IMG/VR virus record: IMGVR_UViG_3300035684_000001
Coordinates: 62,001-126,000 of that record
Reading direction: 5' to 3' (one strand)
DNA length: 64,000 nucleotides
From: a virus
The translations under genes were made by a program, and so were the position numbers. The notes under the pieces were generated by a model. The model searched no databases. It saw nothing but the letters and a program-made list of their open reading frames with translations, and had not been told where the DNA came from. Shown here in pieces: positions 5,791 to 58,042 of the stretch (positions are counted from its first letter, which is position 1; every line of letters starts with the position of its first letter).

Positions 5791-5822
5791 TGTTTTTAAT
5801 TGTTTTGAATGCTTACCTCTTT

Positions 5823-5828
5823 ATTATA
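5823..5828 (-). promoter_or_regulatory. -10 box for the methylase-helicase gene
   Basis: On the minus strand a perfect TATAAT lies about 33 bases upstream of the ATG at 5790. No -35 element is obvious. It sits back to back with the promoter of the 471-aa gene, so the short 5791-5889 gap holds two divergent promoters. Confidence 0.6.
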
Positions 5829-5846
5829 CTCTATTCAAATAATATA

Positions 5847-5855
5847 TGATATAAT
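5847..5855 (+). promoter_or_regulatory. Extended -10 promoter (TGaTATAAT)
   Basis: An extended -10 lies 35 bases before the ATG at 5890 and is followed by the A-rich leader AAATACAAAAACAAAGG. The AAAGG in that leader can serve as the ribosome binding site. The same architecture recurs before several accessory genes of this window. Confidence 0.6.
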
Positions 5856-5889
5856 ACGAGAGTAAATACAAAAACAAAGGTATTTTATC

Positions 5890-8916: not shown

Positions 8917-8921
8917 ATTTT

Positions 8922-8930
8922 TGGTACAAT
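8922..8930 (+). promoter_or_regulatory. Extended -10 promoter of the tape measure gene (TGgTACAAT)
   Basis: An extended -10 overlaps the first possible TTG start (8921) of the giant reading frame. That makes 8921 an unlikely start, because transcription should begin near 8937. The leader downstream carries the 8961-8983 hairpin. Confidence 0.6.
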
Positions 8931-8960
8931 TCAATGAAACTAATATATCACGCTACGCAG

Positions 8961-8983
8961 GCCACCCCACCCAATGGGGCGGC
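8961..8983 (+). promoter_or_regulatory. 5' leader hairpin of the tape measure gene
   Basis: GCCaCCCCA (8961-8969) pairs with TGGGGcGGC (8975-8983) around a 5-base loop. It is followed by TTTTGTTGTTT, a GGGGGG run (8995-9000) and a TTG at 9005. The order hairpin, T/G-rich stretch, Shine-Dalgarno, start is the same as before the S74 fibre gene at 37863-37912. It may be an attenuator or an mRNA-stabilising 5' hairpin. Confidence 0.6.
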
Positions 8984-9004
8984 TTTTGTTGTTTGGGGGG
9001 AATT

Positions 9005-24000: not shown

Positions 24001-27000
24001 CTTGTTTACTAGGATTTTTACGGGAATCCAAGATATTCCGATCGCCCTTGGGAAAGTAGCAGACTGGATTAAGGAGAAATGGCAAAAGTTTGCCGTAGAG
24101 TTTCAAACGATATTGACTCCTATCGTAGACTTTGCTAAATGGCTGGGTCAAACCTTGATCAACTTATTGAACCATAGCCCGACGGTCAAGATCCCTGAAG
24201 CTTGGAAGGAAGCAGTCACCAAAATAACGAATTCGTTGTTGGCACTGATAGCGCCTGCGAGTTGGGTGGCAAGTCAAATTATCGAGAAGTTTAATTTAGA
24301 TGCAGTAAAAAATGGGTTTAAATCCCTGACTGGATTTATCTCTAATTTTGCAACCAGCTTGTTTTCTGAAGTTCAACAGCCACTGACAGACTTGATTGGC
24401 ATCGTAGTTTCTGCAAGTAAGTCAGTCATTGATTTTGGCAAAACTTTGTTCGACATTGCCAAGGCGGTAAATAGTGGGGCGATCGCCTCCGATGAGATGA
24501 CATCTAAATTAACGGGTGTGTCATCCGCCGTCAGACATTTGGGTGAATTCTTAGGAGTAATTCTACGGAGTTTAGGGCAGTTCTCTCAAGGATTAACTTC
24601 CGCTGGTGATGATGCCGATCGCGCATCTTCTGCGGGGAAAGGGTTGGGGCAAGTTGTAGGAAAGATGTTAGCTGGCATAGTTAGTTTCTCTACGACAGTC
24701 CTGCCACCTTTGTTCAAAGTGTTGTGGGTGTTTACGCAGATAGGTATTGAGATTTCAGCGTTCGCACTAAAGTTTGTATGGGCATTTCGCTTTGTACTGG
24801 ATTGGCCTAGTCGGGTAATGACCGCTGTTTTAGGTTTATACAATGCGGTCATGAGGTTTGTCGCGCTGTTGTCGTCATTCTCTCGTAAATCTAAGGAAGT
24901 TTTTGTAGGATTACAGGAAGGTTTTGCAAGCTTTAAGACTCAACTAGCAGGTGTTGCGCTGACTGCGAGTGAAATTGCAAGCAGTTTCCTCGGTTTCGCT
25001 AAAGACATCGGTACTTTCGGCTCGAAGATGGGAAGTGTCATAGCTGAAATATTAATCGGGCTGAAAGATGTAGGTGTTGCGCTTTTCAAGCTCGGCTTAG
25101 ATGTTTCCCTACCATTCGACATCTTCAGTGTGTTTAAAGGGATTCCCGACATAATTTCTAGCATAGGTGCTCTTGGCAGTAACGCCACTGAATTAAAAGG
25201 AAGGTTGATTTCAGAGTTGGGAGAATTGGGTGCAGCGATCACCCAGTTTCTCGAACAACCACTGAAAGCGGTGGGGGCAATTTGGGAAAAAACCGGAGGC
25301 AAAATTGTCGGGGCGATCGCGGGTATCGGTAGAAAAGCCAAGCAAACCGGACAACAATTGCAGGGCGATTTGTCGGAAGCGTCGCCGGGTCCGACTTACT
25401 GGATTCGCAAAAATTGGCTCAATACTACAGAGACTATCCAGAGTCAGTTGTCGGACTTGGCGCTGTCTGCAAAAATTGAAGGCAACGCAATTTACAAATT
25501 CTTAGACCGATCGCTCACCGCGTTATCTCCATCTAAAATTGCCGAAGCCGGGGAAGCACTTGGCGGACTGAAGTTTGATGCGCGACTAGCGATGTCGAAC
25601 GTGGGTCGTAATCCGAAAGTTGACACGCAAAGTAACCTTCATGTCATTACCGCACGGCAGTTGAGATTGAATGAACTCTACAAACAAGGGACGATCGACA
25701 GCAAAGTCTACACCCAAGGTTTGAAGAATTTAGAATCTGCCCACAAGCGGGTAACGCAAGCAGTCGAACAGGATACCGCTGCTAGGAAACAAGCTGGTGA
25801 AAGCGTTAGATCTTTGTCGCTGTCGATCGGTTCCGCACTGTCGAACATTGCCCCGCAGCTAGCGACGCCGATATTCATGTTCAATGACTTAGTGACTGCA
25901 TTCCTAGATATTCGGACTGCAATACCGGGGATGCGAGCTTTTTACGCAGCGAACGCAGCAAGTTCCGTAGCTGCTGACAGCGCGATCTCCGCATCCGCTT
26001 TAACCAAAGCTGGAATCGTGGGGGGTGCTAACGGGGCGATCGCCGCTTCTTACGGGTTTGTTGCGGGTGCTGCCAAGCTTGCCTATAGGTCAATGATTGT
26101 ACCGTTGCTGCCGTTTTTACCTTTGATATTAGGGATTAGCTCTGCCATATTTTTGCTGTACCGAGCTTACAAGGACAACATTGGCGACATTCAAGGGGTT
26201 ATGGAAAATGCAAAAAATAGTCTAGGTAATTTTGGATCGTGGATTCTTGAGTCTATTTCCAGTGTTGCTTCTGGAATTGTTGGAATGATTGCAGGCGTCC
26301 TTGGCCCATTGATTGAGGTCAGCAAATTTGCTTTTACTGTATTTGGGGTATTCGTTGAGTCACTACTGAAGATTGGCGCTGCTTTAGCTGTATTTTCTTT
26401 CCTGGGTCAAATAGGGAGTCTGTTTGTCAGCGCTGGGGCATTTGTTACTGGATTGGGGCTAGCAATTGTTGAATTTTCGACGATCGCTGGAAGTGTAGCC
26501 GCAGTATTTAGCGGAGTATTAGTTCCAGTGATTCTCAGTGGATTGAGTGCAATCTTTGCTGCGGCAGCCGCAGTAATCACCCCCTTTCTTCCTTTGATTC
26601 CATTAATTCTAGGAATTGTCACGGTCGGGTGGGTGCTGGGGAAAGTCTTCAACTTTGTTGGCAGTATTATCGGTGGCGTTTTCGGGGGGATTTGGAATTC
26701 GAGTACCGAAGTGGTTGGAACACTATTTCAGGAAATCAGTAATGTCTGGAGCGCACTCGCGGATCTAGGTGATCAAATTGTCCAACCATTCGCCCAAGCT
26801 TTTGGGGCTATCGCCAGTATCTTTGGCGGGGTAGATGGAAACATATCAGGGGTTGCCTCAACAATCATCCATGTGTTGCTGATTCCAGTTAAGCTTCTAG
26901 CTGCTGGCTTAATTACAATCATCAAGGCAATTTCATTTACGCTAATTGGCGTAATTAAAACGCTAGGGTTTGTTTTCAAGGTTGTCTCGAAGATTGTTCA

Positions 27001-27880
27001 ATCGGTTGCAATTGTCGGTACAGTGATCGCCGGAACAGTCGCGACTTTAGCCTTGATAGCAAATTTTGGTGTCGTGCTTGCTGGGATAACAGGAGCTCTT
27101 GGGGCGATCGGTACTGCTGTATCGGGAGTTGGCAGTGCCTTGATGGCGATCGGAGGCGTATTTGTCACAGTTGTCATTCCAGTCATTATGGGCGGCATTG
27201 GGGCTATAATTGCAGGTATTTCTGCTGCGGTGGTTGCAGCGTCACCTTTCTTGGCGATAATTCTTGGAGTTGTGGCGATCGGGTGGGTTTTGAAAGAAAC
27301 TTTCGTTGTAGTTGGAGGTGCTATTACTAGAGTTTTCCAAGGAATTTGGAACTTAATTCAGTGGGTTGTCACTAATTCAATGGGGATTCTAGCTAATATC
27401 CCCTTCGTTGGCGGATTGTTTGCTCCTTCATTGCGGAGTCAACCTTTACCGAGCCACCCACTACAGGTTCAGCCAGTACAGCGTTATGCGGTCGGTGGTT
27501 TGATATCGGGTCCGGGAACATCTACAGGCGATCGCGTTCCTATTTTGGCTTCACCTGGGGAGTATGTTATCAACGCTGCTGCTACGCGATCAAACCTACC
27601 GTTGTTGGAATCGATTAATCAGGGCGATCGGGTAGAAGCTTCTAACCTCCGCGCATTGCCCGTTCCCGCAACTCCAATTCCCCTTCCCCCTGTTGCATCT
27701 TCGCAGGCGACAGAGTATAACGTTCAATTAATTTTTGGAGATATTATAGTACAGGGTGCAAATCCAGGTTTTGCAGCAGAAGAATTATTACGCGAACTCA
27801 TGAAGCATTTGGAATCACCGCAAGCACAAAGAGTTATTCGCAATCAATTGCGCGATATTGTTGAAAAAGCGAAGCAATAA
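9005..27880 (+). CDS. Giant phage tail tape measure protein, TP901 type
   Basis: About 6,291 residues from a TTG at 9005 preceded by GGGGGG; the frame is open to 8921, but that would place the start inside the promoter. The tape measure protein sets tail length and fills the tail tube before DNA ejection. Seen: a PhageMin_Tail-like core at about residues 195-430 (MSAVAAISRSTGKDLDRL onward). Long hydrophobic helical blocks fill much of the rest. A roughly 1,100-residue hydrophilic, charged block lies at about 1930-3100. The C-terminal signature is GGLISGPGTSTGDRVPILAS followed by GEYVINAAA, typical of tape measure ends. Two internal repeat families occur (SPGPTYWIR at about 905, 4244 and 5458; NHNPTEKIP at about 3435, 3727 and 5055). 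By the usual 0.15 nm per residue the tail would be about 0.9 micrometre; this is an inference. HIP1 sites are frequent outside the hydrophilic block. Confidence 0.92.
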   Translation: MEESLDRYGLVGQFNFLVADGSFSSMKSVVKHLSNMEKAVADASKSVDSNGLAGQFKSAARSLDTSSGNMAKSLQPLKAEFRVLKATAANIDFGDVLDDRQFKKATTAVNTYVKNLKELRKQVQGETAAEREFTEVLKRQQRVIKDKLALHDAERKAAFFSQRKGEFGALQQVGNIALNPLKQAGKEAIQVFAGFDDKMSAVAAISRSTGKDLDRLRGKAKLLGATTRFTAGEAADAEKYLAAAGFNAQQIFAGVPATLDLASAGQLGLAESADIASNVLSGMRMGVSDLGHITDVMALSAASANTNIQQLGVAMSYAAPNAALFGAGIEETSALIGVMSNAGIQSDKAGTAARGAFLKLAAPTVRGRMALIQYGISLTDTSGKMRNIVDVMQDIGTNLQLDPASLDSIIQAGDDVEKLGQLAQSKQISALKDIFGTTGISGASAAISQMQEFTRLSLAGRGSSFAIEDYEKLFKSQGIDKLATDKDVFASLLREAGSYQDALQKLDAATIALVKSNEYLGNLSSTQLSQLSGYFQIPEGENLFDAILATAPDANAAVSKLTSAMGELGIEFKGKSGAAKTMAQVMENNLAGSFRSLGSAFEAVQVNLIEPIAPIVRAISDTLTKLLLAIANLPSPIRGLIAGVGVLTAGFAAVSVAVGTVGVVLFGFSQAAATATAAGIALQASVIPLTGFFPAAMAAFEGTASNPFKTASFAAEAFSDTIASTSKDVNLGLNGIARNIAVVSRSLISMSVSFALSPMGIAIASFLALNAILQQINPEINLLGTIFSAVSSIAGFAVGIIQGFGEALLAALDVPTSVAGSMLTAPFAAVSSAIEYATVAFETWRKSGRAIGVDIFKFVAQPFQLAGRAIETSWNFTLNYIKGLLTPFAGFVARIGKLLQGGLAEASPGPTYMIREKWDYTIAFLEKLFTRIRNAAGLVNRAFLGIGSVTESSKMEAQQQILQGAINLVTNSVKKLSVIGGTITQIQQFERSIIDGVRENFDFLSFTLLTLSSLPLTLLAQLEEGAALIVPELAFIIGEGIPRAFLYAMPGLVAIATSTGLIQGIERGFMGAIDAIPEFLERISDKIYNSLSVGMKQKLNQGLSEGLTSFARSMPAIFPGGVAINVDIDKSYLAIKDFIRGPLVGLIAYLHRVGDLSKEIGKEIYAGIEPILSFNPFTFFPLFSALPPLIPLVTAILPMEKALVSLAKSPSVQGIMGFLTGTVLPAALRTIAAISSLVIFTFNAIVTLPVLAVLQEVISRLTPITEILRAIALNAQSVAAAVGRSLLLAVDRAVIGIAALILEIPYIGKHLSAAFLVGTKALGGFFQLIAASAPRYLNLLLRFFPTKQLVALFSSYRKIFTDLMSGVVYAFREGLNPVSNILMKALNPAAAFKFLAFYIRTKGLAGIIKKGGFGGLSQIFNLANYINPIDIALGLNKSLNEVARLVSGSAVPLDFISRKQAEIFQVLATPAARRLAEREKRLVSLVEILESASGPMKVFIKLVQGLMMVSPIVQIVSRLGLTMLFWYNILKPVNKEMLDAIANTRLLGVSLMPVAKVLEVMRFVVVDLGEILFRFLKAIPGMAATVMDVFDKLGTGIGVTIHEIVGVSSILANVFKFSVINPLAGILLAVIAVADGTLIAVLATFKLIRLKTQQYGDAITALLRGNFVPLVKQIFSDLFGVINFGFQQTAMRAVSAISYLGKTVGTIVGASAAEIVRLIRDPIGEITRLTELSVKSLAAATAGVMVYVRQLQLDKLIRFAADFWPEILAVASVLGRIYGLLSPIQFAIVGLIELGGFLSYEYATGFQNLDKIITALQHPIDALNMAMQGIAGFLGLYISPDLTGFIGNLAEQFVKFLPVIGSGVFAIALLLTRNIGGAFQMISNNVLLFIGRILQVSEAIAGVGDRVRQVASSANIQVGLSEVANKVRRRSTVAGIANPLAYSQDFQTQQQATFLGDQRVAKSKAALRYQKELAKAQQQEQALSERALISEVKRGTDFGKGLADAERRYYLKDKNGITEGVSGAAVEKRRNRFGIEQYQVTDIGRQLLKMSGQGGENVKAGRGLQFENIRREAAKRSGLDAEFSRFGNAPSNEELVKLAGGKNVAIDLLTNFQKAMANLHVEDIKAEYLYVSKSKLPQVSKDKPDSERAFDIQVQRFKDKGNKDIGINSVASSSEIRKEMEAAKKATVNASTAFYSRLNAILAKVKTSPTDSSPSSKMFNPEADTQNYADRLKAAKAVDKQRPQGEFERTLADIIHTINERQTKMIVQTVTGFNNFEEANKQAARELQESSGRSRQVAIGFGEVAVQGVRNLGHSMQESSNLLEGQVASTRNSLVRTLFGWTGIPKILEAMRFDKTIAIQARIVQARTERIARSEATAALVLKRARERGLDALVKNNPEHANLDLLLVKMRQPENKQLYQFFNQFMETGKYQREATGNEITQLTEMLKASFGEKRPEFQGVDNLKTFLDRLKSAPDLNKEDIQKLRRYLTHGTGDRGKQLKENEFEALAKQLTNAGIGGENELLDLRTALRRDESLATVFDQYLLTGKFVLKASQEQQNQIAGFLGLSSSRELKNIDQIKLKNPLEQLKVNVRVYLESIDAGFERFNRSTISQIDSLESKLIKIPFMSVEMAENIVRPLRNFYAGIYRSALSAKDSSIKLAGDLYNAAEASVKGSKFVQRIEKLNKDFRIAQRNSLQHMMTEGREKAPKTHYQFMGQMFAELTKTDIKDRQVQDKILQSILKDQKDSEGNNISIKDRLLKLGMGDRIENITKALGKALDVNEARVREIVENPDYTAKSVAPYQFFLAKAFPDLIKNFTGGVTLLAAKSGAGGLIKKIVADISPALGKPVLIGLSNVIDRARIAMSVGTNRIAREVEGLIGTNPFSNFLNNFSRFLARSGDSLSKFFVDRANGFDAERAKSWTVKIVDKAGELFKTVAGVLVQAGNQAKSQQGGILGAIGNLFSGVKKFFSNVFGNKDIAKLQKQKEAAERLAQSEGDSRLGLAAKRRAATLGDRIEYTKQFNSPASKAKAALFGLAELLKTASQKVGQGADALNAQSRQAAIPQSETTIREASRGGRRHYRSLERRGLIDSADVSIDSGMAEYASNILPLTEKISASILKGASSAARGISTYFQGAATRTETAWQEATNRITGNNWWTMVKRAAWAGVKIVTSLNHRASDVTSAAWENTEHSTAANMNQMAQVAAGTGAEIAQDMQRAAQVTQQSIAHIPQVAEQATTKSVGFFHKLVGAMGGVGKAGMAVGGAVTAAGFAAQTAFFSLQNMGFIDEATGQSLYKVTELFTLVGAVGGLAAPVLTALGASFGAIVSISGATIAGLTGIGGAIAGAMGVAALPLAPLIAGVAAIGLAAGGLYLAFKNNFLGIGNLARSTGDMLSQALSAPISFITAAWQRFIDAFGGKLMAIIQPALNVAQGLINALNHNPTEKIPTAWEGAVASITGLIQGMVAPAKGVGEEMSEVLQADDAKQRRKTEFINSIALGATGEKQKLSWQENLQIGFGKVVAALTSVLSPLDSVGKKLDIQAQLLHAQIRQQQTAQAQTLWRFATNKERNKNLATRIEGMLQRRFSREAPQQLSHSARTMGGFVPRSGTTATAPPMLGALQQSGAGKGISKFGSLLKPIFGLGMLGEVGTLMLGIGGITTALSVLTLAFTTDFADIRTKTVKLTTAIGHLFSGAVQTIQRAWTGFVHWFLDMPLVDTALEMALGLIDALNHNPTEKIPAAWEGAVERISGAINWLITPAKEVAGILTGVFSPVSDFFSSKAKQANLVVSQGKEAVVNTKNSLTNTYAGMEGFFTQGSRAIESELHLHGQIFLSIVSTLNNIASYTKSLLSLLDKTQEETRSSAVAQAPDLGKSSVLAQRKYQIGFGLKGEGWKKRTEQSRQKDISNDLGQQKRGWNLFDRVHIPDFIEIRNVFDKESAFRTQIQAQMQKEELKIADTILQGLNSKSLSSQAEYAGLATKITVQKKGLGGLLGQTEDVYKINQAGQKYIEEQLAASAKNQEGMFSNARLSATAASVGAKIPDQSLLDKALIGQDSLNDAIKIAPGQPGKSQQILQLESINSILAEILTVIIGLQPASVQIPSKQVIAEPPREKLLPLEVKETSSAQKFFGFLSQSIKENAPKITNSIQGTVKSGIDKTKDFISSRKQAFIEKKTYLAAKAGAGIFGGTVPKTPDAVGVTGTIGFGDLGASSTNAAWANTASAITANINSLVQPAEDSGYELQKAVSEGSPGPTYWIRHYWEKTVGAIAGWMGDIQSTAQETGSVLRGSLTNSASKILLSPPKNDLKSQAIRSASFFMLAVGDRYQYLADRGIGSASILFAPGMEYVTSSLSQLGEDLVDFTGRSARALLTLNFVELGDAAHDFFGNFKYGVGGVLSGFSSMSLSAIAFGLFSLSGISPLLLVLGGVAFTAAVIVANFLGIRTILTGLIKIGIGAGKILAGVLWGLVEAASAFKTIALGILPALKGDFTLIQDGFRRLGFAFENFQRSASDGLKTIAQGSIQILQGFGEALEQIFRPLGFTIKQTTESIQNFFSAFRSGEQAGEMVASILIAAVKSFTNAIGFAIDSIKKHFPVIKQLLVEQLDLGVQSIKDKIFQVQEAIKNFTFKDAITSISQLFGSIDGSVESVPDRIKRLAPGITEALTAPLRYVGDFWRSFFNTILAELPPEIVATIQKGFGDAISAVEPTFRQILKTLNIEEYFDRAIVKVQTSWQHLKNWLGQSNLFQVVGDRLREAFKPENLSQAFLSTINILEAAWSKFVGWMSATNLFDWLFALLLKVGSEFTLFGDLLREKWSDVQKLLASGQVFQGFFEGMKDLGSKLTTWALEIGLKFEIPAIQDLFVKIALLGENLSNTTAFIREKWNKLSVWLAETPLIPGALDFLVALGTKFGETISWIKSEWPNFITFLTSADLFANISAKMKSFGESIPSLFEEIKGQVAKIIPSMNGAIGSIQVQWQRLTEFLNKKGLFTRVFAGLSEALNEKGLFTRIFTGIQDIPIALGKVADWIKEKWQKFAVEFQTILTPIVDFAKWLGQTLINLLNHSPTVKIPEAWKEAVTKITNSLLALIAPASWVASQIIEKFNLDAVKNGFKSLTGFISNFATSLFSEVQQPLTDLIGIVVSASKSVIDFGKTLFDIAKAVNSGAIASDEMTSKLTGVSSAVRHLGEFLGVILRSLGQFSQGLTSAGDDADRASSAGKGLGQVVGKMLAGIVSFSTTVLPPLFKVLWVFTQIGIEISAFALKFVWAFRFVLDWPSRVMTAVLGLYNAVMRFVALLSSFSRKSKEVFVGLQEGFASFKTQLAGVALTASEIASSFLGFAKDIGTFGSKMGSVIAEILIGLKDVGVALFKLGLDVSLPFDIFSVFKGIPDIISSIGALGSNATELKGRLISELGELGAAITQFLEQPLKAVGAIWEKTGGKIVGAIAGIGRKAKQTGQQLQGDLSEASPGPTYWIRKNWLNTTETIQSQLSDLALSAKIEGNAIYKFLDRSLTALSPSKIAEAGEALGGLKFDARLAMSNVGRNPKVDTQSNLHVITARQLRLNELYKQGTIDSKVYTQGLKNLESAHKRVTQAVEQDTAARKQAGESVRSLSLSIGSALSNIAPQLATPIFMFNDLVTAFLDIRTAIPGMRAFYAANAASSVAADSAISASALTKAGIVGGANGAIAASYGFVAGAAKLAYRSMIVPLLPFLPLILGISSAIFLLYRAYKDNIGDIQGVMENAKNSLGNFGSWILESISSVASGIVGMIAGVLGPLIEVSKFAFTVFGVFVESLLKIGAALAVFSFLGQIGSLFVSAGAFVTGLGLAIVEFSTIAGSVAAVFSGVLVPVILSGLSAIFAAAAAVITPFLPLIPLILGIVTVGWVLGKVFNFVGSIIGGVFGGIWNSSTEVVGTLFQEISNVWSALADLGDQIVQPFAQAFGAIASIFGGVDGNISGVASTIIHVLLIPVKLLAAGLITIIKAISFTLIGVIKTLGFVFKVVSKIVQSVAIVGTVIAGTVATLALIANFGVVLAGITGALGAIGTAVSGVGSALMAIGGVFVTVVIPVIMGGIGAIIAGISAAVVAASPFLAIILGVVAIGWVLKETFVVVGGAITRVFQGIWNLIQWVVTNSMGILANIPFVGGLFAPSLRSQPLPSHPLQVQPVQRYAVGGLISGPGTSTGDRVPILASPGEYVINAAATRSNLPLLESINQGDRVEASNLRALPVPATPIPLPPVASSQATEYNVQLIFGDIIVQGANPGFAAEELLRELMKHLESPQAQRVIRNQLRDIVEKAKQ
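11717..25418 (+). repeat. Dispersed SPGPTY(W/M)IR module in the tape measure gene
   Basis: Three copies begin near 11717, 21735 and 25377. Each encodes a Ser/Glu-rich lead-in, SPGPTY, W or M, IR and then an aromatic Trp-containing stretch. The nucleotide match is partial, pointing to old internal duplication rather than recent copying. Confidence 0.7.
19297..20290 (+). repeat. Tandem NHNPTEKIP module in the tape measure gene
   Basis: Two well-matched copies begin near 19300 and 20170, each encoding a leucine-rich lead, NHNPTEKIP, AWEGAV and a hydrophobic helix ending in a PAK motif. A more diverged third copy (NHSPTVKIPEAW) lies near 24165. They suggest growth of the gene by intragenic duplication. 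Confidence 0.7.
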
Positions 27881-29330: not shown

Positions 29331-29356
29331 AAGTATAATTCTAAACACAAACGACA

Positions 29357-29899
29357 ATGAAAAAACAAATAGCAGCCTGTTTTCAAATTTCCGCCTACTC
29401 GGAAAAAACAAGAGAACAAATTGCTGAACGTATTCGCAATACCATCAAAGACTTAGACAAACCTTCCGATCCGATCGTAGAAGATTGGACAGGAGTAGAC
29501 CAAGAATGGCCACCAGAGCCAGAAGTCTATATCTTCTTCGACATGGAAGAAGAAGATGAAGTAGATGATAAAGGAATCCCGCTAAAAATCCTAAATGCGA
29601 TCGCGGGCGAAAATGTTTTTTTGTGGATGGGAGATGCCCCATCGTCTGAAGGTACTGTTCTTTTAGAAGCGAAACATCCAGAGAATGTCGAACAACACAT
29701 TCAATGGGTTGGTGTTTCGATAGATATGTACCAGCACACTTACATTGCCTGGAAAGCACACCCCTGTGCAGAGAAATACAAATGTAGCACGTCAGGGTGT
29801 CAAAAATTCGGAGAATGGTACTCGCTCCCGAAAAGTTTTGTTGAACTGACACGACCTGAGTGTCCGTCGTGCAATAAATTAGGCACAAAAATATCCTAA
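29357..29899 (+). CDS. Hypothetical 180-aa protein with C-terminal zinc-ribbon-like cysteines (copy 1)
   Basis: Starts MKKQIAACFQISAYSE and contains IVEDWTG and WPPEPEVYIFF in the first 70 residues. It ends with cysteine pairs (CSTSGC about 143-148, CPSCNK about 170-175) that could bind zinc. No family is recognised. It is the intact member of a tandem duplicated pair; the second copy (30221) aligns along its first 140 residues and has lost the cysteine tail. Own extended -10 promoter; terminators follow at 29955 and 30044. Its role may be intracellular and small-molecule or nucleic-acid related, but nothing in the sequence proves it. Confidence 0.7.
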   Translation: MKKQIAACFQISAYSEKTREQIAERIRNTIKDLDKPSDPIVEDWTGVDQEWPPEPEVYIFFDMEEEDEVDDKGIPLKILNAIAGENVFLWMGDAPSSEGTVLLEAKHPENVEQHIQWVGVSIDMYQHTYIAWKAHPCAEKYKCSTSGCQKFGEWYSLPKSFVELTRPECPSCNKLGTKIS

Positions 29900-29954
29900 T
29901 TAATTACCAAGCCTCGCACAATTTTAAACTTAAGTGAGGTTTTGATCTAAAAAA

Positions 29955-29993
29955 ACAGCATTTTAAATTTATTGTTTAAGGTGCTGTTTTTTG
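29955..29993 (+). terminator. Intrinsic terminator after copy 1
   Basis: ACAGCATTTTAAA pairs with TTTAAGGTGCTGT (with wobble pairs) and is followed by a T run. Its counterpart after copy 2 is at 30795-30835. Confidence 0.7.
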
Positions 29994-30043
29994 TTTAAAT
30001 ATAAATCTCAACAATCGCCCGCTTATAAATTTAAATTTATTCC

Positions 30044-30082
30044 AAAATGCGCCCCCAGCCTAAAAACCGGGTGGCGCATTTT
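30044..30082. terminator. Bidirectional terminator, copy 1
   Basis: AAAATGCGCC pairs with GGCGCATTTT with a partly paired interior. The interior is in the opposite orientation to that of the copy at 30902-30940. Confidence 0.7.
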
Positions 30083-30102
30083 GCGTTGAGCCGAAAATCA
30101 AA

Positions 30103-30172
30103 TTAAGAGGCAGGTATTGGCTGAATCGTAGGGGGTAGTTCGATTGTAGGTATTGAGTCGGCAGCAGCGGTT
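30103..30172 (-). pseudogene. Duplicated 3'-end fragment of the 30962-31336 gene
   Basis: This stretch encodes ADSIPTIELPPTIQPIPAS and a stop on the minus strand. It matches the last 22 codons of the downstream Pro/Thr-rich gene. It marks the right edge of the duplicated unit and has no upstream coding part. Confidence 0.75.
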
Positions 30173-30179
30173 TGAAATG

Positions 30180-30188
30180 TGTTATAAT
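30180..30188 (+). promoter_or_regulatory. Extended -10 promoter (TGtTATAAT)
   Basis: The best match to consensus in this family, 33 bases before copy 2, followed by AAACACAAACGATA. Confidence 0.65.
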
Positions 30189-30220
30189 AAAATATATAGT
30201 TGAAGTAAACACAAACGATA

Positions 30221-30664
30221 ATGAAAAAACAAATAGCAGCAGCTTGCCAAATCTCTGTCTACTCTGAATCTAAGGCAGAAGAAATAGCTAGTCGTCTTTG
30301 CAACACAATCACAGACTCAGGAAAACCATGTAATCCTATCGTAGAAGACTGGACGGGGGATGATACAAGTTGGCCACCAGAGCCCGAAGTCTACATCTTT
30401 TTCTGTATACAGGAAGAATGTGATGTGGATAATCGGGGAATCCCCGTAAAGATCCTAAATGCGATCACAGATGAAAATGTTAGCTTACGGATGGAGGAAG
30501 ATTTCTTGCTTGAAGCAAAACGTCCAGAAAGTATTGAGCAGCACTTTGAATGGGTGGGTGTTACTATCAATGAATATCAATCGATATACGCCAATCGAAA
30601 ATTCCATCCTGATGCGGAGCAATATAAACGCAACGTACCCAAATGGGAAAAATGGAACACCTAA
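30221..30664 (+). CDS. Paralogue of the 180-aa protein, truncated (copy 2)
   Basis: 147 residues, starting MKKQIAAACQISVYSE, aligning with copy 1 through IVEDWTG, WPPEPEVYIFF and VKILNAI. It lacks the copy 1 segment around residue 95 and ends early at WEKWNT. A remnant of the lost cysteine-rich tail survives out of frame at 30698-30742. It keeps an intact promoter and start, so a shortened protein is probably made. Whether it is functional, a regulator of copy 1 or decaying is unknown. Confidence 0.6.
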   Translation: MKKQIAAACQISVYSESKAEEIASRLCNTITDSGKPCNPIVEDWTGDDTSWPPEPEVYIFFCIQEECDVDNRGIPVKILNAITDENVSLRMEEDFLLEAKRPESIEQHFEWVGVTINEYQSIYANRKFHPDAEQYKRNVPKWEKWNT

Positions 30665-30697
30665 TGTTTGCTACCAAGAAACTTTAAATTTGCAGGA

Positions 30698-30742
30698 TCA
30701 AAATGCTCGTCCTGCAACAAATTAGAGCAAAAAATATCCTGA
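30698..30742 (+). pseudogene. Remnant of the zinc-ribbon tail of copy 2
   Basis: Encodes SKCSSCNKLEQKIS followed by TGA, matching the end of copy 1 (CPSCNKLGTKIS). It is no longer in frame with the truncated gene upstream. Confidence 0.7.
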
Positions 30743-30794
30743 TTAATTACTAAACCTCGCACAATTTTAACATTACGTGAGGTTTAGCTTACTA

Positions 30795-30835
30795 AAAGCA
30801 GCATCTTAAATTCATTATTTAGGATGTTGCTTTTT
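30795..30835 (+). terminator. Intrinsic terminator after copy 2
   Basis: AAGCAGCATCTTAAA pairs with TTTAGGATGTTGCTT (with wobbles), then a T run. It is the duplicate of the terminator at 29955. Confidence 0.7.
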
Positions 30836-30901
30836 TGTTGCTTGAATGTGTGTCTTGACGATCACCCCTTATAAAAAAACATAGATTTAGCCTACTTATT
30901 G

Positions 30902-30940
30902 CAAAATGCGCCACCCAGCTTTTAGGCTGGGGGCGCATTT
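30902..30940. terminator. Bidirectional terminator, copy 2, interior inverted
   Basis: AAAATGCGCC and GGCGCATTTT arms enclose a CCCAGC-GGCTGGG interior that matches the reverse complement of copy 1. It lies 21 bases past the stop of the minus-strand gene at 30962. Confidence 0.75.
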
Positions 30941-30961
30941 TGCTTTGAGCCGAAAATGAAA

Positions 30962-31336
30962 TTAAGAGGCAGGTGTTGGCTGAATCGTAGGGAGTGGTTC
31001 GATTCTAGGTATTGAGTCGGCAGTAGCGGTTGGAGTAGCGGTTGGCTCTACATTAGCAACTGGTTGGGCTGGAATCTCGGATGCTGTTGGGTCTTCAACA
31101 ACAGTTGCCGTAAGTTTTTCGTTCATTGTGGCAATAGTAGCGCTGAACGTCCTCAGAGAAGCTACTAAAGCCTCTTCATCTTGTGCTTGCTTTGCATCTT
31201 CAGCCAGCTCTGTGCCTTTCAGGGAGTCAATTTCCGCTCGCTGCGATTTTATTAAACCAATCGCTTGTTCAATCGCCGGAGCAAAAACGTTCAATCCAGT
31301 GATTAGTTCTTGTACTTCTTGGAATACTTGTTGCAT
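30962..31336 (-). CDS. Hypothetical coiled-coil protein with Pro/Thr-rich tail
   Basis: From the ATG at 31336 the protein has 124 residues. A TTG nine codons upstream is less likely because it sits only a few bases from a TACAAT box. The first 85 residues are helical (MQQVFQEVQELITGL, IKSQRAEIDSLKG) and suggest a coiled coil. The last 40 are rich in Pro, Thr and Ala (PTATPTATADSIP), like a flexible linker. No family is recognised; a virion-associated or scaffolding role is conceivable. Its 3' end has been copied into the duplicated block upstream (30103-30172). Confidence 0.65.
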   Translation of the reverse strand: MQQVFQEVQELITGLNVFAPAIEQAIGLIKSQRAEIDSLKGTELAEDAKQAQDEEALVASLRTFSATIATMNEKLTATVVEDPTASEIPAQPVANVEPTATPTATADSIPRIEPLPTIQPTPAS

Positions 31337-35360: not shown

Positions 35361-35684
35361 ATGAAAGTACAAATTAAAACAGGTAGTGAATGGCACACTA
35401 CAGAGCGTCGCGGATCAATGGTAAAGATAAACGGCAAACCTATTTATGAAGTGCTAAAACCGATTAATAAGCCCGAATGGGAACTTGTCGGAAACAAAGG
35501 CACTCACGGTAAATGGTGCGTTGCAGAATACGAACTACCAAAAGGCGCAAAAATTGAATTTAAAGCTACAGCTAACAATCGCGAAGATATAGTTAGCTCT
35601 TTTGTTGTCGGAGAAATACCGTCAATCGATGTAGACGGCTATACTTACAACAATAGCATTTGCGGTTGGATTGTTTCAATTTAA
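35361..35684 (+). CDS. Hypothetical 107-aa beta-rich protein
   Basis: Starts MKVQIKTGSEWHTTERRG and contains VNGK-like and GKWCVAEYELPKGAKI segments. It is mostly alternating hydrophobic and polar residues, suggesting a beta fold. No family is recognised. The AT-rich 35158-35360 stretch upstream probably contains its promoter, but no convincing extended -10 was seen. It precedes the lysin gene by 97 bases, with that gene's leader in between. Confidence 0.65.
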   Translation: MKVQIKTGSEWHTTERRGSMVKINGKPIYEVLKPINKPEWELVGNKGTHGKWCVAEYELPKGAKIEFKATANNREDIVSSFVVGEIPSIDVDGYTYNNSICGWIVSI

Positions 35685-35745
35685 CATCTAAAACAATAAA
35701 CTCGACCGCCTCGCCCGGTCGCCTGCCACCAAATCAAAACACACG

Positions 35746-35771
35746 CCCTGCCTGGGATTCCCTGAGCAGGG
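35746..35771 (+). promoter_or_regulatory. Terminator-like 5' leader hairpin of the lysin gene
   Basis: CCCTGC (35746-35751) pairs with GCAGGG (35766-35771), with an inner GGG-CCC stem. TTTTTTATTT follows directly and then the ATG at 35782. The preceding AAACACACGCCC matches the leader of the spike gene. A second small hairpin (GACCG/CGGTC) lies at about 35704-35720. Confidence 0.65.
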
Positions 35772-35781
35772 TTTTTTATTT

Positions 35782-37296
35782 ATGGAAGAAACGAAAACTA
35801 AACCGATCGCCCCTGCAACGCCCGCGACTAAGCCGATCGCCCCCGCCGCGCAGCAACCGACGCAGCAATCCTACCCGACACCGGAGGATGTAAAAAAAGT
35901 TTTGCCTCAGTTCGACCTTGACTCGATCCGGAAAAACTTGCCTTACATTCTAAGGGCGATGAACGAAGCTGGGTTGAAATCAAAGAATCAACTTGTTGGC
36001 ATCATTGCCACAATGGGAACGGAAACCCTTAATTTTACGCCAGCATCGGAAATAGGGCCGGGAAGCTCCAGCGTTGAAGGTGGATCAAATTTCAGGGGCC
36101 GTGGATATATACAATTGACCCACACCTACAATTACGAGATGTTTGGGAAGTTGTTAAACTTGCCTCTGCTGCAAAATCCAGAATTAGCCGGACAGCCAGA
36201 AATTGCAGCAAAGATAGCAGTAACTTATTGGCAAGGAAAGCACAATGCCGCTCAAAACTGTCAAGTATCTGCTGAGGCACAAGATTGGCACGAGGTAAGG
36301 CGAAAAATCCAAGGAAATCCCAACGGTCACGACAACGATTTCGGGAGAACCTTCAAGCCCGCGATTGATCGCGCAATGGCAATTTTTAAATCCGGGATCG
36401 ATGGGATGCCAGCCCTCCCGGGCAACACCGGCGCAACCGATTTTGATACCGGAGGAGCACCCGCAGTTACGATGGTCGGTCAGCACAACCCAACCAGTCA
36501 ATTAGGGGCGATGGAAGCGGCGCTGGGATTGATGGCCCTGGACTCCCACAAAACCCATATTGCTCAATTCTATTTAGACCTTCACGGTCAGCCCGATATT
36601 TTAAAGTTAGATGCCGGATTGACATTTGAAGCGCGGGGGCTGGGAGAAGGACTGGACGATACTTATACTGTGGAAGAAGTTCTGTTCCTTTTTGGCGATC
36701 GCCTCGAAGCAGAAGTAACTGCTTTCAAGCCCGATCCTAATGCAAAAATTCAAATGTTCCGGGGTGATGCTTCCAAACCGGATGCCCCGCAGAAACATCA
36801 AGCCGCTCCAGAAAGCGCGATCGCTCAGACTGTCACGGTAAGCGGAATGCCAGTTTCAAAGCAGGGGTGGCGATCTCCTATGGATATTAAGGGAAATTCA
36901 GTTATAGACGTGGGTGAATATGGAAGTGCTAGGGGACGGCATCATGCAGGAATTGATTACGGTGGACATGGTTCCGGTTCAGATCCAGATGCAGTTTTTG
37001 CAGCTAAATCGGGAAAAGTTACAATAGTCAAAACCGACATGAGTGGTGGAGCCGGGCGGATGGTTCGGATCGATCACGGAGATAATACAGAATCTGTATA
37101 CATGCACTTAGCGATGCCAATTTTGGTAAAAGAAGGTCAATCTGTCCAATCTGGTCAAAAAATTGCTACAAGAGGTGGATCTGGATTTGGTTCTGAAAGC
37201 GGATATGCAATTCACTTACATTTTGGAGTTTATATTAACGGTCAAGATGTAAATCCTCGCGACGTTCTTCCTCATCCTCAAGTAGCAAGAGCTTAA
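35782..37296 (+). CDS. Tail-associated lysin: GH19 chitinase/lysozyme-like plus M23 peptidase
   Basis: 504 residues. After a Pro/Ala-rich linker, residues about 40-210 form a GH19 lysozyme-like domain (FRGRGYIQLTHTYNY, NPNGHDNDFG) expected to cleave glycan strands. The middle (about 230-340) is unassigned. Residues about 360-500 form an M23 metallopeptidase with the zinc ligands in HHAGIDYG and HLHFGV, expected to cut peptide cross-links. Two activities in one protein fit penetration of the thick cyanobacterial peptidoglycan by the tail tip or lysis at release. No signal peptide or holin neighbour is visible, which favours a virion role. It opens a tail/fibre gene series. Confidence 0.9.
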   Translation: MEETKTKPIAPATPATKPIAPAAQQPTQQSYPTPEDVKKVLPQFDLDSIRKNLPYILRAMNEAGLKSKNQLVGIIATMGTETLNFTPASEIGPGSSSVEGGSNFRGRGYIQLTHTYNYEMFGKLLNLPLLQNPELAGQPEIAAKIAVTYWQGKHNAAQNCQVSAEAQDWHEVRRKIQGNPNGHDNDFGRTFKPAIDRAMAIFKSGIDGMPALPGNTGATDFDTGGAPAVTMVGQHNPTSQLGAMEAALGLMALDSHKTHIAQFYLDLHGQPDILKLDAGLTFEARGLGEGLDDTYTVEEVLFLFGDRLEAEVTAFKPDPNAKIQMFRGDASKPDAPQKHQAAPESAIAQTVTVSGMPVSKQGWRSPMDIKGNSVIDVGEYGSARGRHHAGIDYGGHGSGSDPDAVFAAKSGKVTIVKTDMSGGAGRMVRIDHGDNTESVYMHLAMPILVKEGQSVQSGQKIATRGGSGFGSESGYAIHLHFGVYINGQDVNPRDVLPHPQVARA

Positions 37297-53063: not shown

Positions 53064-56000
53064 TTACCTACTAGAAGAATTTGTTGATGATTCTAAGACG
53101 ATAAGTCTAGAAAGTATCGAACCTATCGATAGCTGAATCTCGCTTATTATTGAAAGATTTACGCCATCAACAAAAACACCATCCTCGTTTATTTCGATTT
53201 CATGCAACGTTTCAGGTTCCATTCCTTCTTTAGGGTCAGACAAAGATCGGAAAATAACTTTTTTCCCCTGAATATACACAACTTCTGGCGTACATAAAAC
53301 TTCATTACAAAAAGAACCATCTTCATTAAACGATTGGATATGTGCATTGCGACCTTGAAGCGCAAACCTTGCCGCCTGTTTATCCCAGACAATCGGTTCT
53401 TCTGGTTTATCATCATCATCGTCATTGTCGTCAATCTCAACCGGGGGCTTATTGTGATCGCCAGAAAAGAATGAACTTAGCGACAGCAACCCGCTCTTGG
53501 GATCGAGCAAGACTCCCACACCTTTGGAACCGTCCTCAGAGCCGTTGCGGAACACAGTTGTACCGATTGACGACAAGGATGTTCCAGATCCGCCCATGCT
53601 CAGCATTCCGCCCAGACCTTTAGAAAGTAATTTCTTAGGACTAATGCTCAGAGAAACCTTGCCCCCAGGCCCGAGTAACTTTGTCACCTTCCCTAACATC
53701 TGAAGCCCCGATTTGCCGTCCATACCCAAAAGTTTCAATCCTTGTTCAGCCATCGCCATTTGAGAACCACCGGGTCCTAACAGTTTCACAAAATCCATGC
53801 CGATTTGCATCGCCTTTTTCCCGTCAGGACCCAACAGCTCAGCAACTTTCTCGGCAAGCTTCAATTTAGAAACTCCATCTGCTCCTACCAACTGAGAGTA
53901 AGTTTTTACCATTTCCAGCAGTCCTTTACCCGACGGACCGAGCATTTTAGCGAGTTCTTGCGTAACAACCGTCATTGCCCCCTCCTTACCGCCAGCCCAA
54001 ACAGTTGCCGATTTTTCATCGGCAAAGATATTTGTGCGGATCAACTCCCCGATCGCATCCTCGACTTGCGGACCCAGTAATTCCCCTATTTTTTCGTTGA
54101 CGTAGCTGATTGCAGCTTTCTCACCCGCACCTTTCATGCCGATGTCATTTTCCCAAGCGAACATTTCTGTCCTGACTTTTTTGCCATCTTTCTCAATGGC
54201 TGGGCCAAGGATTCCCGATTTTACTGGATCGACAAAGCTACAAGCACCATCCCCGCCAGATTTCATTGCCACAGTTCCATTTTTTTCAGCACACATGGAA
54301 CTTCTTAGTTTAGATTTTTTTGGTTTTTCTAACTCTTTTTCCTTTGCTTCACCTCCTTTTTCCATTGACTTTGCAACAAAAGGAGTGAACTTAAATCCAG
54401 CAAAATCGCTAGGCGGCTCATAATCATCGTCGTCCTGAGTTGCATCGTTGCGAATTGGAGACAGCATTTCTGCACGATTTGCCCCAACAACTGTCATAGC
54501 TCCCTCGCCCGGAGCAAACATAGCTGTTTCTTCGGATGCTGCCTGCATCCCCGATCGAGTCTTTTCTCCATTGATTTCAATCGCCGGTCCGTGCATTCCA
54601 CTTTTGGTTTCATCCGCTGAAAAGCAAGCTCCGTCACCGCCAGATTTACCGCCTACCAATCCTTTCCGATCGGCAAACAGACAAGTCCTCAATTTTTTCT
54701 TGGCTTCTGCATCTGCAAATTTGCCCGTTTTACCTTCTTCCCGATCGCCCCCCTTCTTAAATTTGACCGACTTGAGGTCAAATTCAAACCCATCATAGTC
54801 GCTGGCGGGAGGATCGTCTTGTTCATCTTTAAACTCGCCTTCTTCTCTTTCTGGACCAAGAACTTCTGCCCGATCGCGCGCAACGTAAGATATTGCACCG
54901 TCAGCAGCCTCGCTTCCTGCTTCCTGAGCGAATACAAAACTACCAGTCCGCAGTTTTTTACCGTCTAATTCAATTTCCGGACCGAAAGTCTCGGCTTTTT
55001 CTAGGTGGACGATCGATCCCGCGCCGCGTCCTCCCGATAAAGTTCCAGCCCCGCCGTAACCGTCCGCGAATAAGGAAGTTCGTACCATCCGGTCTTTTTC
55101 TTCTAGATCGTCGTACTTGGGCCGCTTTTTAGCTTCTTCCTGTTCCCCACCTTGTTTGCGACGCTGCCCTTTAGAAAATATTTTGTAACCACCTTTTTTA
55201 CCTTTACCTGGTTTATCTTCCTCGCGTTCTGGTAATTCCCCATCTTTGCGTTCCGGTCCTAGAATCTCTGCCATGCGTCGCTCTACGCGAACGCCGCCGC
55301 CTTTATCCCCTGCGGTCATACCTCCGCCAGCTTTGTCGGCAAACATAGACACTCGAAGGTTGGGAGCAAATTCCGGACCCATTATCTGAGCACCTTCTTT
55401 GCCAATGCGGGCGATCGCCCCTTTCTCACCGCGATTTGACTCCATCTGCACGTAAGTTTCGCGGGCAGTAATCCTAGCCCCTTTGGGTTCGTCGGGTATT
55501 GCGCGAAGGAGTTTGCTGTAGTCGTCGATTGCCGACTCTAGAATTGGAATCAATTTTTGCGCCAGTTCTTTGCAAGATTTAGGCAATACTTTTTCTACAG
55601 CATTTTGCAGGATATCATCGGAACTGTTGGTGATTGCAAAATGCTTGGCAACTTCTTTGAGCGGTTCAACCAGTATGTCTTTGTTAAAAAGTACGTCATC
55701 TCTAAGCAATAGAAATGCCAAAGCTTCTAACGGTGCAATCCCTTTGATACTTTTCTGCCCCTTCAATACTGCACTTAAAGTTTTTTCGGTTTTTTCAATT
55801 AATCCTTGAGTTACTTCCCCAAATAGTATTGATAGTGGAGATTCCCCCGCCACCAATTTATCCACGTTTTTTTTATCTTCTTCGATTTGTTTCGCTTCTC
55901 GATCTTTGTCGGCTAGCTGTTCTTTTGTCAAAAATTTAGCAGCTTTTAAATCTTGATTGCTGAACACCCGAGAAACTGCTTGTTCCGTCAAGGTTTCGTC

Positions 56001-57470
56001 GCCTTTGTGTAACTGGTAAACGCCCATATTGCCCTTAGCAAATTCAGAATATTCCCCGAGCTGCCCGATCGCCCCTTCTACCCTTTCCGGCAGCTCGTCC
56101 CACCACTCTTTCTCTTCTTTGATAGTAAATTTTTCTAAACGCTCTGGCTTGGGATTGATGGTATCTTCCATACCTTTGATTTTGTCCTGCAATCGCATTC
56201 TGACGATCGCGTCAATCGAATGCCAACCGTTCGGCACTATCTCGGCTATTAGTGCTTCCTTCTGCAAAACAACGTCGTACCTCAGCGCGTCCAGTGTGGG
56301 TACAATCGCGTCCAACCTTGCAAACAGAGCCTTTTTTTCCTCAGCGTCTAGCAGTGCCAGCAGTTTTTTGAGATCCTTCGGTATCATCCCCAGTGCTGTT
56401 CCGACGATCGCGCTGCCGGGTTTATCCTTGGCGACTGATTTTTCTGCGATGTTAACTATTTTGTCTAATTCAATTCTCAAAGCTTCTCGCAGTTGACCGT
56501 CTAAGCTTTCGCCCAGATCGACAGCAGGGGCTGTCTTTAGTTCCTGCAAGATTCCAATTCCTTTTGGCAGGTTCACCGCTACCCCATCTCGCAGCCTCCG
56601 CAAAACTGCATTAGCTTCGTAAATATAGTGCGACGTGCCAAATGCTCCGCTTTCAAAACCGTCAGTCAGTTTTTCTAGTTGTTTTAACAGTTTGACCCCT
56701 TGATCTAAATCTGCCGATAAAAATCCCCTAGCTTCAGAGAGCAAACGCGAATGGCGGCGCAAGGGTCCTTCTAAATGTGCATTTTTGCTGTTCAGACTTA
56801 ACTGAGATTTTTCGGCGCAGGCGATGGTAAGCGTCCCGTCTTTATTCAAATTAATGGCAGCACCGCCGAGCGATCGCGCGTTCAGATTCCCTTCCGGCGA
56901 TGCAGTGAAACTGGCATTGTCGTTCTCGATGCTCGCAGCGCCGTCTTTCATCAAATGGACTCTAGCCTTGCCCGGTGATTCTTGGAGGATAGAACCATCT
57001 CCAGAAACCGACTGAACGGCTTTACTCGCAAAAGTCTTGAAATAGGAGCCATCTTTGTCGTTGTTGATTTCAATCGTCCCGCCTGCCGACGCGCTGCCTG
57101 TGACTCCGTGCGATCGGTCGAAGTCTGGATGCGGGCGATCAACTCGGTTGTGCAAACACCCCATTATTATCAGTCTGGTAGGGTCGCCAAACATCGGACT
57201 TAAAACAACCAAACTCCCTAATCCCAGCGGACTGTGAGAACCTCCGGGTACGCCATTTGCCGTGAATTGTTCCATTACCGGAATCCAGCCGTCATCTTCG
57301 TTAGGTAGATAAGCAGTTTCGGAAAGCAAGTCACATTTGACTCTGGCGCGACCGATCTTCTCTGGATCGTTTACGTCTACGACTGTTCCCGGCATCCAGC
57401 CCATAACAAAGCCTTCTTTGATGTGCGTTGCCTGGACTTTTTCTGGCGTTATTTTGGATTCAAAGCTCAT
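53064..57470 (-). CDS. Giant baseplate spike protein (gp5/VgrG-like)
   Basis: 1,468 residues; most gp5/gpV spikes have 200-600. Residues about 20-110 form the OB fold (GWMPGTVVDVNDPEKIGRA, LVVLSPMFGDPTRLIIMGC). A beta stretch with repeated SxxNDKDGS-like turns follows (to about 235), then a long helical insertion (about 240-690). Then come imperfect repeats of LGPE/LGPxxxDGKK, RTxMFA and GGxGA (about 690-1290), and a beta tail ending LESSTNSSSR. The repeats fit an intertwined beta-helix needle. The protein should be a trimer at the tail tip that punctures the cell. The start lies behind a terminator-like leader hairpin. A relic of a second copy of its 3' end lies at 51332. Confidence 0.88.
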   Translation of the reverse strand: MSFESKITPEKVQATHIKEGFVMGWMPGTVVDVNDPEKIGRARVKCDLLSETAYLPNEDDGWIPVMEQFTANGVPGGSHSPLGLGSLVVLSPMFGDPTRLIIMGCLHNRVDRPHPDFDRSHGVTGSASAGGTIEINNDKDGSYFKTFASKAVQSVSGDGSILQESPGKARVHLMKDGAASIENDNASFTASPEGNLNARSLGGAAINLNKDGTLTIACAEKSQLSLNSKNAHLEGPLRRHSRLLSEARGFLSADLDQGVKLLKQLEKLTDGFESGAFGTSHYIYEANAVLRRLRDGVAVNLPKGIGILQELKTAPAVDLGESLDGQLREALRIELDKIVNIAEKSVAKDKPGSAIVGTALGMIPKDLKKLLALLDAEEKKALFARLDAIVPTLDALRYDVVLQKEALIAEIVPNGWHSIDAIVRMRLQDKIKGMEDTINPKPERLEKFTIKEEKEWWDELPERVEGAIGQLGEYSEFAKGNMGVYQLHKGDETLTEQAVSRVFSNQDLKAAKFLTKEQLADKDREAKQIEEDKKNVDKLVAGESPLSILFGEVTQGLIEKTEKTLSAVLKGQKSIKGIAPLEALAFLLLRDDVLFNKDILVEPLKEVAKHFAITNSSDDILQNAVEKVLPKSCKELAQKLIPILESAIDDYSKLLRAIPDEPKGARITARETYVQMESNRGEKGAIARIGKEGAQIMGPEFAPNLRVSMFADKAGGGMTAGDKGGGVRVERRMAEILGPERKDGELPEREEDKPGKGKKGGYKIFSKGQRRKQGGEQEEAKKRPKYDDLEEKDRMVRTSLFADGYGGAGTLSGGRGAGSIVHLEKAETFGPEIELDGKKLRTGSFVFAQEAGSEAADGAISYVARDRAEVLGPEREEGEFKDEQDDPPASDYDGFEFDLKSVKFKKGGDREEGKTGKFADAEAKKKLRTCLFADRKGLVGGKSGGDGACFSADETKSGMHGPAIEINGEKTRSGMQAASEETAMFAPGEGAMTVVGANRAEMLSPIRNDATQDDDDYEPPSDFAGFKFTPFVAKSMEKGGEAKEKELEKPKKSKLRSSMCAEKNGTVAMKSGGDGACSFVDPVKSGILGPAIEKDGKKVRTEMFAWENDIGMKGAGEKAAISYVNEKIGELLGPQVEDAIGELIRTNIFADEKSATVWAGGKEGAMTVVTQELAKMLGPSGKGLLEMVKTYSQLVGADGVSKLKLAEKVAELLGPDGKKAMQIGMDFVKLLGPGGSQMAMAEQGLKLLGMDGKSGLQMLGKVTKLLGPGGKVSLSISPKKLLSKGLGGMLSMGGSGTSLSSIGTTVFRNGSEDGSKGVGVLLDPKSGLLSLSSFFSGDHNKPPVEIDDNDDDDDKPEEPIVWDKQAARFALQGRNAHIQSFNEDGSFCNEVLCTPEVVYIQGKKVIFRSLSDPKEGMEPETLHEIEINEDGVFVDGVNLSIISEIQLSIGSILSRLIVLESSTNSSSR

Positions 57471-57482
57471 AAAACAAAAAAA

Positions 57483-57504
57483 CCGCCAGAGAGAAACCTG
57501 GCGG
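57483..57504 (-). promoter_or_regulatory. Terminator-like 5' leader hairpin of the spike gene
   Basis: On the minus strand CCGCCAG pairs perfectly with CTGGCGG around 8 bases, followed by TTTTTTTGTTTT and the ATG at 57470. AAACACACGCCC precedes the hairpin, as in the lysin leader. No Shine-Dalgarno sequence is visible. Confidence 0.7.
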
Positions 57505-57553
57505 GGCGTGTGTTTAATTTTTGGTAGGGCGGGCGATCGGGTGGGCGATCGGG

Positions 57554-58042
57554 CTAGCTATTTAGTTCGTCGATGTCATCGCGGTTAAATTGCAGCCCAC
57601 GTCGAAATTCCTCTTGAGTCCAATCTCGAACATGGGGATTTACTGTTCCGAATTCCTGCATTTGTGATAACCACAGACTGATCCGAGCAAAAAAGCGAGC
57701 ATCTGACATAGAATAAGCAAACGCTACAGATGGGTGAACAAAGATAGATCCTTCATCACCTCTAACGTAGTCTATCAAAGCTTTTGAGCGACTACTCATT
57801 TCTGAGTACCCGCTCTTAACGGCTAATTCTGTGTCAGCATTAGCGACTGGCAGACCCGTTAAAAGTGAAAGCTCTTCTAACACATCTTTTGCAAACTGAG
57901 TTCTAGTCCAATTGTTGAACCGCTTTCCGATCGCCTTACTGATGTCTCGAACAGACACATACCCATCCTTGCCTCGAATTTCAATTTTTTGACCGTTGTA
58001 CTCAGGAAATTGATCGAACCATGATACCATTGCTTTAGACAT
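57554..58042 (-). CDS. KilA-N domain protein
   Basis: 162 residues. GYVSVRDISKAIGKRFNNW and SIFVHPSVAFAYSMS with ARFFARISLWLSQM are the signature of the KilA-N DNA-binding domain, which occupies almost the whole protein. KilA-N proteins are frequent in phages and are thought to act as regulators or antirepressors. It precedes the spike gene on the same strand by about 84 bases, including the spike leader. The C-terminus (RRGLQFNRDDIDELNS) is acidic. Confidence 0.85.
   Translation of the reverse strand: MSKAMVSWFDQFPEYNGQKIEIRGKDGYVSVRDISKAIGKRFNNWTRTQFAKDVLEELSLLTGLPVANADTELAVKSGYSEMSSRSKALIDYVRGDEGSIFVHPSVAFAYSMSDARFFARISLWLSQMQEFGTVNPHVRDWTQEEFRRGLQFNRDDIDELNS

Follow-up and report, generated by a model that had tools for sequence, protein, structure and literature searches.

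In phage lambda, the terminator tR' lies between the late promoter pR' and the late genes and keeps these genes off by default, with Q as the antiterminator. In phage Xp10, intrinsic terminators precede the late genes and the protein P7 lets the host RNA polymerase bypass them, turning the genes on (PMC6624301). Cyanobacteria are without Rho, and canonical intrinsic terminators were found at just 22% of the transcription units of one species (PMC13289151). The terminators mapped in Synechococcus elongatus consist of a hairpin and a U-tract, and two sites of this type were enough to stop the Synechococcus RNA polymerase in vitro (PMC13289151).

The DNA analysed here is a window of 64,000 nucleotides, positions 62001-126000 of a 188,553-bp IMG/VR virus record; positions refer to the window unless marked as record coordinates, which equal the window position plus 62000. 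The virus is large and distantly related to the Nostoc phage-plasmid pC052_F. To our knowledge, the silencing and switching on of late genes in large temperate cyanobacterial phages and phage-plasmids have been little studied. A search of largely open-access literature found no description of a leader class like the one reported below, in which a hairpin and U-run precede the start codons of mostly late genes. The recurrence of this layout in two relatives suggests a switch or brake on the particle-building genes.

Results

Spike, lysin and portal queries against the viral_contigs collection matched just one sister virus, IMGVR_UViG_3300036939_000082 (188,942 bp), whose best lysin and spike segments are 91% identical at the protein level. 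The spike and portal queries gave no match in genome_contigs. By protein comparison, plasmid pC052_F of Nostoc sp. C052 (NZ_CP040278.1) is a distant phage-plasmid relative of the virus, with a portal that is 47% identical and ~33 virus proteins matched. This 223-kb plasmid carries portal, sheath, terminase, an 8170-aa tape measure and ParA/ParB. Genes were called heuristically in both viruses, without a dedicated gene finder. A Csx3-family (CRISPR-associated) gene is present in the virus (record 1-40000) as well as in pC052_F (117272-117586). Rfam, applied to the whole record at gathering score, returned only two tRNA genes, one on the plus and one on the minus strand and both outside the window, and no known leader RNA family.

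The spike or baseplate hub gene (53064-57470, minus strand) encodes a 1468-aa protein with a Phage_base_V OB domain. Its leader contains the 16-mer AAACACACGCCCCGCC (57500-57515), the 3' end of which forms the 5' arm of a stem-loop, CCGCCAGG/TTTCTC/TCTGGCGG (57483-57504), with a stem of 8 bp, a loop of 6 nt and a folding energy of -13.0 kcal/mol. Seven T (57482-57476) and then GTTTT follow, the whole U-run (57471-57482) abutting the spike ATG at 57470, 12 nt past the stem. Ahead of the stem lie a GC-rich CGATCGCCC trailer and an A-rich, G-poor stretch (57505-57553, minus), preceded by a gene for a 162-aa KilA-N domain protein (57554-58042, minus); the 3' trailer of this gene makes up the 5' portion of the spike leader. 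The lysin gene (35782-37296, plus) encodes a 504-aa protein with a GH19 chitinase-like domain and an M23 peptidase. In its leader the same 16-mer, AAACACACGCCCTGCC (35737-35752, plus), runs into a stem-loop of -16.5 kcal/mol (35745-35772), and a U-run (35772-35781) of six T at 35772-35777 followed by ATTT abuts the ATG at 35782, 9 nt past the stem. The gene upstream of the lysin encodes a 107-aa protein of unknown function (35361-35684, plus); the sister virus has a different gene and a KilA-N remnant at this place.

These observations confirm the initial annotation in that both leaders carry a shared sequence, a GC-rich stem and a T-run. It had also placed the ATG within 10-13 bases, which is correct for the spike and slightly too long for the lysin. 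By the sequence criteria applied to the mapped S. elongatus terminators (PMC13289151), both hairpins lie below the -10 kcal/mol that marks intrinsic terminators, and both T-runs exceed the U-tract threshold of at least four U in the 8 nt directly past the stem. Folded in isolation, the two elements are more stable than their dinucleotide-shuffled versions, with z-scores of -3.6 for the spike and -2.8 for the lysin.

The 188.5-kb record contains exactly two copies of the 16-mer, and the similarity between the spike and lysin leaders extends over ~80 nt at 73% identity (E ~2e-7 within the record). In the sister virus, hairpin, U-run and ATG are kept at both genes. There, the lysin comes after the 3'-terminal ~27 codons of a KilA-N gene and a trailer of the kind seen before the spike; the upstream neighbour is otherwise different. 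Because the KilA-N remnant and trailer also precede the lysin there, the letters shared by spike and lysin are best read as a recently duplicated KilA-N-trailer/leader segment rather than as a constraint on the letters themselves. In pC052_F, the annotated starts of the spike, lysin and major head orthologs lack a hairpin. The earlier view that the shared sequence marks a conserved element rather than chance is supported for the architecture, which recurs in the sister virus, at about a dozen other mostly late genes and in pC052_F, but not for the primary sequence. The leader has a weaker third copy at record 7046-6992 (minus), ahead of a gene for a 726-aa DPBB/M15 protein with an N-terminus similar to the lysin's.

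An exact search of viral_contigs with the 16-mer gave 23 matches, which we estimate to be about chance level. We rejected a mobile or widespread motif, the matches being near chance and the inspected ones lying in unrelated contexts; four of them represent one prophage group, in which a similar-looking terminator is coincidental. The KilA-N protein had no match in the phage and plasmid collections. In the sister virus (record ~105200-106100), the 5' end of the spike gene is duplicated around a small inserted gene, in the order ~40 spike codons, terminator-like hairpin, ~150-aa inserted gene, leader and full-length spike, with a hairpin ahead of each of the two spike ATGs and another ahead of the insert. 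This looks like a moron-type insertion. Elsewhere in the window, positions 29342-31034 hold a tandem duplication (spacing ~860 nt, 74-86% identity), in which 30043-30084 and 30901-30942 form a near-perfect pair of 42-nt inverted repeats.

The spike and lysin leaders belong to a wider class. All starts were scanned for a hairpin of -10 kcal/mol or lower with a U-run ending 5-40 nt before the start, and the same upstream regions were shuffled. Such structures precede 16 of the 211 starts in this virus and 18 of 210 in the sister virus; dinucleotide shuffles give 1.3 and 1.2, a 12-fold enrichment in the two viruses. The background of start-proximal hairpins is not zero, since the control Nostoc plasmid pC052_E has them at 4 of 131 starts. 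At ~14 mostly late genes, an A-rich, G-free stretch that often ends in a CYCAA-like motif is followed by a hairpin, a U-run and, 7-31 nt on, the start codon. These include the portal (record 150041), the 548-aa gene after it (151541), the major head (153276), the gene preceding the sheath in the sheath module (129434), a baseplate-like gene (13522), the tape measure, a lysozyme-like gene (155910), the spike and cell-wall hydrolases or lysins, among them the gene for the 726-aa hydrolase (record 4810-6990). A RusA-like gene (record 14453) and further genes at record 9727, 139833 and 145045 are also members.

The tape-measure leader, found by inspection, is the third member in the window, with its stem-loop at 8960-8984 (plus). 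It is preceded by TACAAT (8925-8930, plus), a possible -10 box of a putative promoter, and both the sister virus and pC052_F likewise have TACAAT upstream of their tape-measure leaders. The giant tape-measure gene (8921-27880) probably starts at a TTG just past the leader hairpin and not at the ATG at 9080.

The stem sequences differ from gene to gene. Nearly all leaders are kept in the sister virus, usually with a stem-to-start distance within 3 nt; the sister copies of the leaders at record 9727 and 155910 fold weakly. Strong stem covariation between the two viruses was not found: 3 two-sided and 9 one-sided changes keep the pair and 20 cells break it. The head genes lie in series behind up to three such hairpins, an arrangement that would be strongly polar without read-through.

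When the leaders were aligned on the stem, positions -21 to -1 were A-rich and almost free of G, with an A peak at -14 to -12, a position-specific AAATA at -14 to -10, a C-rich segment at -5 to -3 and often AA at the end. Past the stem, the T frequency was 0.78-1.0 over six positions and then decayed, as in an intrinsic terminator. From the two viruses alone, we derived a matrix for the 22 nt that precede the stem and applied it to pC052_F. Among 227 hairpin/U-run structures in that plasmid, the top two scored 13.8 and 12.9 and the next 6.4; the top two lie 11 and 12 nt before the starts of a sheath-module gene and of the ortholog of the gene at record 151541. The start-proximal structures scored higher as a group (p = 0.0055), and those of the portal (5.7, anchored one base off) and the tape measure (3.9) also ranked high. 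Annotated pC052_F starts with hairpins are those of the portal, a 544-aa gene, the tape measure, a 109-aa sheath-module gene and the 570- and 740-aa orthologs. Since the two viruses share orthologs in the training matrix, the pC052_F test is the independent one, and it draws on a handful of genes.

A hairpin before a start codon may belong to the gene on either side. The hairpins could be ordinary intercistronic terminators that end the upstream transcript, in a compact genome where the next gene starts shortly afterwards and the relative dose of late proteins is set by leaky read-through; at spike and lysin, the hairpin would then be the KilA-N terminator of a moron-like cassette. The genome is indeed full of strong terminators, many of them bidirectional at gene ends, and most leaders other than those of portal and tape measure, spike and lysin included, trail a co-directional gene, at distances of 62-97 nt except for two that are longer. 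The KilA-N trailer that forms the 5' part of the spike leader, the KilA-N remnant before the sister lysin and the extra hairpin copy ahead of the small insert within the duplicated spike 5' end of the sister virus fit this explanation as well. At portal and tape measure, however, the upstream neighbour is divergent by the heuristic gene calls, so the hairpin cannot end that gene and lies in the 5' leader of the portal or tape-measure gene itself. Where the upstream gene is replaced in the sister virus (at the lysin, at a 738-aa gene and at the spike with its insert), the hairpin stays with the downstream gene, and this tracking favours leaders. The near-constant stem-to-start distance in the two viruses and the upstream signature, which separates the class from other terminators in an independent genome, also speak against intercistronic terminators, an explanation that we consider possible but on balance unlikely. 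Leader placement is thus favoured by the sequence comparisons; it does not by itself prove terminator activity. The portal leader hairpin (record 149983-150041) lies between two divergent starts, and the reverse strand also reads as a T-rich stretch and an ATG after the hairpin.

The hairpin could also mark the 5' end of a late mRNA. The AAATA-like stretch 10-14 nt before the stem would then be a late promoter without a -35 element, transcription would start at the CAA immediately ahead of the stem, and the hairpin would protect the mRNA or shape translation initiation. The U-run would serve as a ribosome (S1) loading site, a role proposed because only a minority of genes show a Shine-Dalgarno-like motif (66 of 212, with none at spike or lysin). 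This scheme would account for the fixed position of AAATA, the near-absence of G and the C-rich segment with its following AA. Yet the U-run hugs the stem and decays toward the ATG in a terminator-like manner, AAATA fits a sigma-70 -10 box poorly, a conserved -35 is absent and no phage sigma factor was found above cut-off in the virus, all of which makes this explanation doubtful. Chance could also have brought a few GC-rich palindromes into AT-rich spacers, the genome having many CGATCGCC repeats. The structures of the control plasmid would fit this, but the 12-fold excess over shuffles, the conserved positions and the cross-genome signature disfavour it, and we regard it as highly improbable.

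Discussion

The reading that we prefer, and to which we give about an even chance, is that the hairpins are leader terminators gating late genes and that those of spike and lysin are members of this class. The sequences themselves show the elements, their enrichment and conservation, their position at late genes and, at portal and tape measure, that they are leaders and not trailers. That such terminators would lower or gate late-gene expression is proposed by analogy with Xp10, and we infer termination in the host, gating that is off by default and an antiterminator. The host RNA polymerase would reach a late gene or sub-operon either by starting at that unit's own promoter or by reading in from upstream, and would meet the A-rich, G-free RNA and then the GC-rich hairpin and the U-run, which lies 7-31 nt ahead of the start codon. 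By default, some of the polymerases would stop at this point, so that virion and lysis genes would be expressed at a low level. Later in infection, a factor encoded by the phage or the host, or simply high transcription with read-through, would let the polymerase pass. The near-total stop unless antitermination acts, as envisaged in the initial annotation, is plausible; partial termination would fit too. Weighing against the preferred reading are the weak stem covariation, the pC052_F orthologs of spike, lysin and major head that lack the hairpin, the head genes in series, which would need read-through, the co-directional genes upstream of most leaders and the negative searches described next.

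The accompanying suggestion to look for an antiterminator gene yielded no NusG-family protein and no Q-family protein over cut-off in direct searches and Pfam scans (in one of them among the best 25 of 41 families). No phage RNA polymerase was seen in the Pfam scans; a direct PF00940 search also matched no control genome and is uninformative alone. Multi-HTH proteins with sigma-like matches were considered as late activators and rejected, as they match HNH/homing endonuclease families instead; the multi-HTH proteins of Nostoc and of the phage are unrelated by BLAST. We also rejected an attenuator or riboswitch with an alternative fold, the upstream duplexes being weaker than the hairpin in each of the 12 leaders and, in 11 of them, no stronger than those of shuffled sequences.

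Tentatively, and as a broader proposal that we hold to be rather unlikely, the late regulon of a family of large cyanobacterial phages and phage-plasmids may be held off by at least a dozen leader terminators, with the upstream RNA or DNA signature (A-rich and G-free, then CYCAA) read by an antitermination factor in Rho-less hosts. A shared leader with a recognisable signature at each late unit makes the late switch directly testable. It would also bear on termination in a phylum without Rho, and could yield tunable terminator parts.

Among known arrangements, phage morons resemble the KilA-N gene before the spike and the spike insert of the sister virus, in that each of the two is one gene flanked by terminator-like hairpins; no such cargo gene accompanies the majority of the class. 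Lambda shares the terminator-gated late genes proposed here by analogy, but it has one late leader, whereas here there is one per unit, 7-31 nt from the start codon, and no Q-family match over cut-off. As in S. elongatus, the sites combine a GC-rich hairpin below -10 kcal/mol with at least four U in 8 nt in a phylum without Rho; the mapped S. elongatus sites end transcription units, whereas those described here directly precede start codons (PMC13289151). Xp10 has intrinsic terminators ahead of its late genes (PMC6624301), as proposed here. In contrast to Xp10, many leaders with a common upstream signature are spread here over many late units.
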